DNA of 49,286 bases from Arcobacter sp. (GTDB lineage: Bacteria > Campylobacterota > Campylobacteria > Campylobacterales > Arcobacteraceae). The notes beneath the pieces were generated by a model. The model did not search any database. It was not told the DNA's origin and saw only the letters and a list, made by a program, of their open reading frames with translations. Of the stretch, positions 33,765 through 35,735 are shown in pieces; within the stretch, counting starts at the first letter, position 1, and each line of letters begins with the position of its first letter. Both the position numbers and the translations under genes were made by a program. The DNA lies in contig DQSS01000354.1 in NCBI GenBank assembly GCA_015663165.1, positions 1 through 49,286 on the forward strand, in the 5' to 3' direction.

Positions 33765-34097
33765 CTATTGTATTATACTATCAATGATACCTAATATTTG
33801 ATTTATAGTTTTTTGATTTGCTTTTTCAATAAATTTTATATTTCTTGAATTATAATCTATTGACTTCATTTGTTCAGCCATTATAAACCCAGTGATATTT
33901 TCACTTTCTACTTCAATATGAAATGGAAAATCCATATTTGTATTGGTAATAAGACAAGCAAAGGCAAGTCCAAGATGCTTATTAAATACTTTATTACTTA
34001 TTATTATAGCGGGTCTTCTTCCCTTTTGTTCATGACCACTTTGTGGTTCAAAACTTAATGCTACTATATCACCTTGATTAGGGATATATTTTACCAT
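33765..34097 (-). CDS. mazF: MazF/PemK-type endoribonuclease toxin
   Basis: 110-aa toxin of the MazF fold, a sequence-specific mRNA interferase. Family features: GDIVALSFEPQSGHEQKGRRPAII, with the conserved GHEQ and RRPA, and a later CLITNTNMDFPFHIEV strand region carrying the Thr/Ser equivalent of the active site. The reading frame is intact and full length. Its ATG overlaps a mazE-like TGG-TAA end (ATGGTAA), the normal mazEF arrangement, but the upstream antitoxin frame is headless. Toxicity of this copy cannot be judged from sequence. Confidence 0.92.
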   Translation of the reverse strand: MVKYIPNQGDIVALSFEPQSGHEQKGRRPAIIISNKVFNKHLGLAFACLITNTNMDFPFHIEVESENITGFIMAEQMKSIDYNSRNIKFIEKANQKTINQILGIIDSIIQ

Positions 34098-34201
34098 TCT
34101 TCTAAACCAACTTTATTGTCAAACTCTTCACACGCTTTATAATTAGATGGTAACTGTTTAACCAAATCACTAATATTATATTTTTCTCGTTTATTTGTAT
34201 A
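34091..34201 (-). pseudogene. Headless mazE antitoxin remnant (C-terminal MazF-binding tail only)
   Basis: Overlapping the mazF start, a 36-codon open stretch encodes YNISDLVKQLPSNY and EEFDNKVGLEEW, then TAA. This matches the C-terminal toxin-binding part of MazE antitoxins (LxELV...N.H.E.D.G...G.E.W). The in-frame codon before it is TGA at 34202-34204, with no ATG or GTG within; only weak TTG or ATT starts are available. The N-terminal AbrB-like DNA-binding half is missing, and none of it was found in the 100 bases upstream. It is either a decayed gene or a minimal antitoxin peptide. Confidence 0.65.
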
Positions 34202-34206
34202 TCAGA

Positions 34207-34235
34207 AGTATATCATCTGTTTTATTGACTGTCAA
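34207..34235 (-). promoter_or_regulatory. Consensus sigma-70 promoter for the mazE remnant/mazF
   Basis: On the minus strand TTGACA (34235-34230) and TATACT (34212-34207) are separated by exactly 17 nt. It is the best consensus promoter seen in the window, and it directs transcription from about 34200, right at the start of the mazE remnant. Confidence 0.65.
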
Positions 34236-34310: not shown

Positions 34311-34952
34311 TTAGCTAGCTAATACATCCGTACCCATAGCAGATTCTCTTATATTTCTTTTTTTAACATAGTTATTTAAACCTATATGGTTGTTGTATCC
34401 TAGTAGTTTTGCTATTTTTCTTACACTTAAACCTACACTTAGTAATTCTTCAATTTTATCTCTTTGCTCATCAAACTTTGACTTTTGTATTGTGCCTTTT
34501 GGTTTACCAAGACATACACCTTCAAGCTTTTTAGCTGTAAGTGCTTCTTTAGTTCTTAAACTCATTAAATCTTTTTCTAGGTCTATTGTCATACCTATTA
34601 TACTTAGTATCATCTTTGTAAGCATATCATCCGCACTTATTAAGTCAAGGTTTTGTTTTACACTTATGATTCTAACTCCACCTTTTAGTAGAAACTCTAC
34701 CATAGATAAAACAGTAGATATCGTTCTACCAAATACATTTAGATCAGAAACTAAGATTGTACAACCTTTTTTACAATCTTCTAAAAGTATAGAAATATTC
34801 TTTTCTTCATCAGGAACATTTACTTCTATCTCTACATTTTTAAACAAAGAAAGTTTGTTTTTCTTAAGATATTTAGCAATTTCAATTGCCTGATTATTTG
34901 TATATTCTTCATTATTTTTATTTACTCTTATAAAACTTATTATCTTTTCCAC
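34311..34952 (-). CDS. Serine recombinase/resolvase-like protein lacking catalytic residues
   Basis: 213 aa with the resolvase fold: N-terminal domain to about 120, long E-helix (TKMILSIIGMTIDLEKDLM), linker with GKPKGT, and a C-terminal helix-turn-helix (GLSVRKIAKLLGY). Where active members have RVS with the nucleophilic Ser, this protein has FIRVNKNN (Asn at 11). The LDRLGR motif is LNVFGR, so Asp and the first Arg are also changed. The frame is intact and has a good ribosome site (TAGGAG). It likely binds DNA without recombining. Two identical 12-mers lie upstream, and the mazF islet is downstream. Confidence 0.78.
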   Translation of the reverse strand: MEKIISFIRVNKNNEEYTNNQAIEIAKYLKKNKLSLFKNVEIEVNVPDEEKNISILLEDCKKGCTILVSDLNVFGRTISTVLSMVEFLLKGGVRIISVKQNLDLISADDMLTKMILSIIGMTIDLEKDLMSLRTKEALTAKKLEGVCLGKPKGTIQKSKFDEQRDKIEELLSVGLSVRKIAKLLGYNNHIGLNNYVKKRNIRESAMGTDVLAS

Positions 34953-34968
34953 ATTTTCTCCTAGTTAT

Positions 34969-35012
34969 ATATATTGTATAATATATAGTTAAATAATAAC
35001 ATATATTGTATA
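34969..35012. repeat. Two direct repeats ATATATTGTATA, 32-bp period
   Basis: Identical 12-mers at 34969-34980 and 35001-35012 sit 17 and 49 nt upstream of the recombinase-like ATG, in its promoter zone. The 32-bp period is about three helical turns, so both would face the same side of the DNA. Confidence 0.5.
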
Positions 35013-35189
35013 TCAATTTGTTTAATGTTTATACATAATGATATACCATAATAGCTTTAACTAATATTAAGAATTGCATTATTTATAAGATATATTTAGA
35101 TCTCTTTCCCTTCTCTTTATTTGTTAAATTCCTTATCAAGTACTTTTTAGATAAAATCTCTTTTATATATAGAACAAAGGAAAGTCTTC
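35013..35189. other. Intergenic spacer before ubiX
   Basis: AT-rich spacer with no ORF. A CTCTTTCCCTTCTC pyrimidine stretch lies near 35102-35115. TAAAAT-like -10 sequences occur about 40 nt before ubiX, and AAGGAAAG is the ubiX ribosome site. Confidence 0.3.
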
Positions 35190-35735
35190 ATGAAATTAGT
35201 AGTTGGAATTACAGGAGCAAGTGGAGTTAGTTTAGGTCTTAAATTTATCTCACTACTTCCCAAAAGTATAGAAGTTTATGCTGTGATATCGTCAAGTGCC
35301 AAAACAGCACTAGCATATGAACAAAATATCTCTATGCCAAACAATTCAAACATAACTTTTTATGACGATGAAAGTATAGGTGCTTGTATAGCATCTGGGT
35401 CATTTCAAACTGATGCTATGATTATCTTACCTTGTAGTATGAATACAATTGCAAAATGTACTGTTGGAATAGCTGATACACTAATTACAAGAGCATTTTC
35501 AGTTATGTTAAAAGAAAAAAGAAAAGTAGTTTTAGCACCAAGAGAGATGCCTTTTAATACAATCCAATTAGAAAACATGACAAAATTATCAAGTCTTGGA
35601 GTTATCATTGCCCCACCAATGCTTGGCTACTATTCACAACAACAAACTTTAGAACAAATGGAAGATTTTATTATAGGTAAGTGGTTTGATAGTTTAGATA
35701 TCAAGCATAATTTATATAAAAGATGGGAAGGATAG
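35190..35735 (+). CDS. ubiX: Flavin prenyltransferase UbiX
   Basis: 181-aa cytoplasmic enzyme that makes prenylated FMN, the cofactor of UbiD-type decarboxylases, from FMN and dimethylallyl phosphate. Family motifs: GITGASGVSLG for the flavin phosphate, GSFQTDAMIILPCSMNT split as GSFQTDAM and PCSMNT, and VLAPREMPF. No ubiD lies in the window. It starts a plus-strand run with coaD, tmk, hisS, speA and cysE, overlapping or nearly so. Confidence 0.94.
   Translation: MKLVVGITGASGVSLGLKFISLLPKSIEVYAVISSSAKTALAYEQNISMPNNSNITFYDDESIGACIASGSFQTDAMIILPCSMNTIAKCTVGIADTLITRAFSVMLKEKRKVVLAPREMPFNTIQLENMTKLSSLGVIIAPPMLGYYSQQQTLEQMEDFIIGKWFDSLDIKHNLYKRWEG

Follow-up and report, generated by a model that had tools for sequence, protein, structure and literature searches.

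The closest described systems are the TnpR resolvases of Tn3-family transposons, including those of Tn3 and gamma-delta and their relatives in Legionella, Megaera and Moellerella. Tn3 resolvase autoregulates tnpR and tnpA (PMC7157771). The master DNA invertase Mpi family (NCBIfam PRK13413) consists of enzymes that actively invert DNA. A mobile-element enzyme turned DNA-binding regulator is known in TldR, an RNA-guided transcription factor of transposon origin (PMC13418256). DNA-inverting serine recombinases appear in a review on how prokaryotes recruit mobile elements, in whose consulted passages no dead-resolvase regulator was found (PMC8987985). In the open-access literature we found no description of either of the two dead-resolvase families discussed below, which is weak evidence of novelty.

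The gene studied here lies in a 49,286-nt stretch of Arcobacter sp. DNA (assembly GCA_015663165.1, contig DQSS01000354.1; hereafter the window), and we consider it likely to encode a domesticated Tn3-type resolvase that has lost DNA cleavage and works as a local (auto)repressor, with accessory res-like sites retained as its operator. Its likeness to Tn3-family TnpR extends from the fold, and an HTH domain with a LGKPKGTIQKSKFD-type hinge, to inverted TGTATAA/TTAWACA half-sites that lie upstream of two divergent genes and, probably, to self-repression. It differs in that the Arcobacteraceae protein lacks Arg68 and, in most members, the catalytic Ser, and in that the gene is a fixed core chromosomal gene, with neither a transposase nor a visible crossover site at its locus. 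TldR has an unrelated fold and is guided by RNA, whereas the Arcobacteraceae protein would recognise DNA with an HTH of its own. The features of the locus are as follows.

34311–34952, minus strand: apparently dead serine resolvase of 213 aa, with the catalytic-fold domain at residues ~1–146 and the HTH domain at ~150–205
34966–34982, no strand assigned: site 3, a third TGTATAA-type copy near the ribosome site
34997–35014, no strand assigned: site 2, TAACATATATTGTATATC (plus-strand reading), the second copy of the element
35007–35035, minus strand: 29-bp inverted pair TGTATAAACATTAAACAAATTGATATACA, which joins sites 1 and 2 and is as long as a resolvase dimer site
35029–35043, minus strand: site 1, TATCATTATGTATAA, the most strongly conserved element of the promoter, with consensus TAWCATTTTGTATAA; its right arm holds a −10-like TATAAA
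35054–35071, minus strand: HsrA/HP1043-like box, here CTTAAT-5 bp-GTTAAA, just upstream of site 1
35190–35735, plus strand: ubiX, the first gene of a conserved divergent ubiX-coaD-tmk-hisS cluster

The open reading frame begins with a GTG at 34952, immediately preceded by an AGGAG ribosome site, and its product matches Pfam Resolvase over residues 5–146 (5e-15), followed by a helix-turn-helix. The N-terminal fold of small serine recombinases and the C-terminal HTH are thus both present, bearing out the initial annotation, which had described an intact frame with a complete fold and HTH behind a good ribosome site. The protein is the sole Resolvase-domain match in the host genome. Its best named family is PRK13413, but the score of 103 bits lies far below the cut-off of 272 and, unlike the Mpi-type enzymes, the protein appears dead; membership among the Mpi invertases was rejected on that score. 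An AlphaFold2 model built from 36 sequences (mean pLDDT 78.5) has as its best match in the PDB the Tn3 resolvase on site III (5cy1, E 2e-7).

The catalytic set of Ser10 with Arg8, Arg45, Arg68 and Arg71 is incomplete in this protein: Ser10, Arg45 and Arg68 are gone, and Arg8 and Arg71 are retained. In an alignment with gamma-delta resolvase, the window protein reads Tyr6 to Phe, Ser10 to Asn, Gln14 to Glu, Arg45 to Glu, Asp67 to Asn and Arg68 to Val, with Arg8, Gln19, Arg71 and Arg125 kept in family members. The initial annotation's reading of RVN (within FIRVN) and LNVFGR is exact, and it had counted three key positions as replaced; the losses of Ser10 and Arg68 stand, but that of Asp67 has no diagnostic value, since Ser occupies this position in the majority of the active relatives aligned (LSRLGR). 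By this comparison the telling losses are those of Arg68, Arg45, Ser10 and Gln14. Arg68 is missing in every orthologue read, and position 14 carries various replacements across the family. Among the homologues, Asn10 is present in all 40 coding sequences counted, encoded by AAT in 29 and AAC in 11, and therefore the amino acid is held while the codon varies.

Ser does occur at position 10 in three Aliarcobacter orthologues (L234–L236), two of whose genomes are represented in our tree as L159 and L162; this small clade has Ser again (RES, RAS, RGS) inside the dead family. The L159/L162 pair is nested within the dead clade with support of 100/100, a position that suggests a secondary change. Ser10 is also found in a divergent relative (43%) from another genome (G013; L120, 3203–3823), which is 1.3 Mb in size and places the gene in another neighbourhood; this relative lacks both Arg68 and Arg8 and has no clear promoter motif. 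Arg68 is missing from all of these Ser-bearing copies. Two ways in which the initial reading might have failed can be judged from these data. A nucleophile displaced to another Ser in an otherwise intact site was not found and was rejected: since Arg45 and Arg68 have been lost together with Ser10, another Ser would not restore the active site. That homologues might have Ser and the window copy be a lone mutant holds only in its first part, for one Aliarcobacter clade and G013 and always without Arg68, and the lone mutant was rejected because the losses are family-wide. That the active site is dead is well supported by these residue comparisons.

The gene is a core component of its bacterial family. 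An orthologue (E ≤ 1e-40) is present in 81 of 88 good Arcobacteraceae assemblies and in 17 of 18 genera, one per genome, and the genomes without it are mostly small (1.2–1.6 Mb). Public genomes yielded 40 relatives of 59–84% identity, mostly labelled Arcobacteraceae or Campylobacterales; a few labels of metagenome-assembled genomes among them are clearly mistaken, as judged by gene context, and one locus (L039) is labelled Sulfurospirillum. In nearly all loci with flanking sequence the divergent partner is ubiX-coaD-tmk-hisS, and rplI-hslV-hslU often lies downstream of the dead resolvase gene. The median dN/dS (NG86) over 68 pairs, a check that the initial annotation had proposed, is 0.103, equal to that of the housekeeping neighbours ubiX (0.104) and hisS (0.112), and the HTH region is nearly invariant across the family. 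Family-wide retention, these ratios and the near-invariant HTH indicate that purifying selection acts on a core gene, and they uphold the earlier judgement that the altered residues do not reflect simple decay. A phage or mobile context for the window copy was considered and rejected. Just downstream of the gene is an ORF for a PemK/MazF-type toxin (33765–34097, minus strand), preceded in frame at 34098–34210 by a short open stretch, REKYNISDLVKQLPSNYKACEEFDNKVGLEEW, of the presumed antitoxin; because only this stretch remains before the toxin, the antitoxin looks truncated in the host genome.

The ancestry of the family can be read from its active relatives. In a maximum-likelihood tree, the dead clade forms a single long-stemmed branch (100/99), to which two active sequences from viral-collection contigs, L207 and L208, are sister (98/93). 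L207 has intact YIRAST and LSRLGR motifs and a tail, LGKPKGTIQKSKFD...NHIALNTYINKRKL, common to the dead family, and its gene is divergent from a fragment of a Tn3-type transposase bearing DUF4158. Plasmids of Legionella fallonii, Megaera, Moellerella and Persicobacter carry close relatives that are annotated as recombinases and are divergent from a Tn3 family transposase; active relatives in this arrangement carry LGKPKGTIQKSKFD-type tails. The tree position and the divergent Tn3 transposases of the relatives together identify the family as a probable domesticated Tn3-type TnpR, and its domestication is well supported. At the Arcobacteraceae locus no divergent tnpA or transposon context was seen; ubiX is divergent instead.

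The repeats that the initial annotation had noticed upstream of the gene are real and conserved. The TAWCATTTTGTATAA element is nearly invariant in 36 of 40 of the family's own promoters, the other four lacking a clear site 1, and usually lies ~89 bp from the start codon; additional copies sit around −53 and −23. The right arm of the element includes a −10-like TATAA. It accompanies the gene even in L039, although the neighbour there is not ubiX. In 22 of the 36 promoters, an inverted TTAWACA lies 28–31 bp (outer-to-outer) from the invariant TGTATAA of site 1, so that the pair is as long as a resolvase dimer site; shuffles gave a mean of 2.7 and a maximum of 9, controls that overstate the significance because the promoters are related by descent and not independent. 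After this spacing test the paired half-sites replaced an interpretation of site 1 as a single 15–17 bp dyad, and an apparent spacing peak at 17 bp is probably a product of the AT-rich sequence beside site 1. Site 1 is itself AT-rich and overlaps the promoter, and RNA polymerase may account for part of its conservation. The box just upstream occurs at the same place in most homologous promoters, in the family form TTAAG-N6-TTAAG. Because the box, at 35054–35071 in the window, matches the HP1043/HsrA consensus, TTTAAG-5bp-TTTAAG (PMC8345958), it suggests that an HsrA/CosR homologue activates the dead resolvase promoter.

Half-sites of the same kind occur in the transposons. In the Moellerella Tn3 res, TAACATTATGTATAG and an inverted copy are the two best matches of an 8.6-kb locus (scores 17.4 and 16.1; next 8.0). 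The tnpA-tnpR gap of L. fallonii contains TGTATAGCATAAAACGGACGTTATTATACA, and L. israelensis, with no adjacent transposase, contains TGTATAACAAATAACGGCCGTTATTTAACA; both are 30 bp long with a GC-bearing centre that we take for the crossover site. Of 40 TGTATA/TATACA hexamers, 10 lie in these tnpA-tnpR gaps, with ~0.7 expected from length. The agreement is uneven: the Persicobacter res has no match to the motif, and three further loci (L238, L239 and L242) have better-scoring matches than the full motif elsewhere in the locus; L238 and L242 have a crossover core, AACGG-CGTT. No such GC core was seen in the Arcobacteraceae promoters, which have AT-rich sites only, and the locus has only accessory-like paired half-sites where a full res would combine accessory sites with crossover site I. 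Since the half-sites are common to the transposon gaps and the GC core is absent from these promoters, the simplest reading is that accessory res-like sites were kept as an operator and the crossover site was lost.

The target range appears narrow. With one mismatch allowed, the site was counted 92 times across six complete genomes and the reversed control 91 times, so that motif search gives no genome-wide regulon in excess of the reversed pattern; the paired half-site pattern elsewhere in the genomes is likewise at chance level. Exact matches elsewhere, among those inspected, fall mostly within unrelated genes. In one genome (G020), the only cluster of matches is at the promoter of the gene itself, where three fall within 80 bp. 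Because neither the element nor the paired half-sites exceed chance elsewhere, the role of the dead resolvase is probably local.

These observations suggest the following course. The TnpR resolvase of a Tn3-family transposon would have been captured in an ancestor of the Arcobacteraceae and would have lost strand cleavage through changes at Ser10, Arg45, Arg68 and Gln14. The transposase gene and the res crossover site would have been lost, with the divergent side now occupied by ubiX; two or three res subsites of the accessory type would have been retained along with the dimer fold and the HTH. These subsites lie across the −10-like element of the promoter and the leader of the gene, and dimers bound there would repress its transcription, with possible effects on the divergent ubiX. 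Such autorepression would match a second function that Tn3 resolvase is known to have (PMC7157771). We infer DNA binding, autorepression and any signal sensed; the earlier suggestion of a DNA-binding regulator gains support from retention, purifying selection, the near-invariant HTH and the conserved promoter element.

Other readings of the locus share parts of this evidence. The protein might be a local architectural factor that bends or loops DNA at the site cluster, or sets expression of ubiX-coaD-tmk, with autorepression secondary. Resolvase accessory sites normally have an architectural role, the cluster occurs at one place per genome with matches elsewhere at control level, and the gene order with ubiX is strongly conserved; yet L039 has the gene and motif without a ubiX neighbour, and the sites are not close to ubiX but lie in the −10-like region and leader of the dead resolvase gene, and we regard this reading as rather unlikely. 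It is improbable that the protein is a global regulator whose other sites are too degenerate for a pattern search: the strong conservation of the HTH and the remaining fold is typical of multi-target regulators, but neither motif nor paired half-sites are in excess elsewhere, and the extra exact matches examined sit mostly inside unrelated genes.

Continued recombinase activity, through another nucleophile or in some species only, could appeal to the retained Arg8 and Arg71 and to Ser10 in some Aliarcobacter members. We give it very little credence, as no member read has Arg68, other residues stand in for Arg45 and Gln14, the promoter region has AT-rich sites without a core like that of L238 and L242, and the Ser-bearing pair is nested in the dead clade. 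A decaying pseudogene, to which the missing catalytic residues alone might point, has next to no probability and was rejected, contradicted by a dN/dS of 0.10, the lack of stop codons, retention throughout the family and the near-invariant HTH. A local autorepressor derived from a Tn3-type resolvase is thus the reading that we prefer.

A second family in the same order resembles the Arcobacteraceae one in having a resolvase fold without catalytic residues, here Ser, Arg68 and Arg71, and conserved inverted sites at its own promoter. It is present in 38 of 100 Campylobacterales genomes, one per genome and none of them Arcobacteraceae (loci L172–L202, L091–L093, L123 and L124, from other Campylobacterales families). 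It differs in its neighbour gene and its sites: in most loci read it lies upstream of a gene that starts like ccoG, as judged from the N-terminal sequence, and in about two thirds of loci an inverted TGACGAW...WTCGTCA pair of 38–40 bp lies over a TTGAC promoter element. In some pairs both arms change together (TGACGTA/TACGTCA, TGGCGAA/TTCGCCA). In the unrooted tree the second family is a separate clade (100/100). One early loss of catalysis may be common to both families, yet active enzymes are the neighbours of the dead Arcobacteraceae clade in that unrooted tree. We see an even chance that serine resolvases were converted to dead core regulators at least twice independently in Campylobacterota, once linked to ubiX in Arcobacteraceae and once to ccoG in many of the order's other families, with the Arcobacteraceae family also keeping accessory parts of res as a chromosomal operator.

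For annotation, the two families carry a warning: in Campylobacterota, the label 'recombinase family protein' or 'resolvase' can stand on a core regulator that is inactive as an enzyme. For the Arcobacteraceae, the locus offers a clear case in which a transposon recombinase has lost catalysis and its regulatory half, protein and sites together, has apparently been preserved for the age of the bacterial family, providing a testable route from recombinase to regulator.
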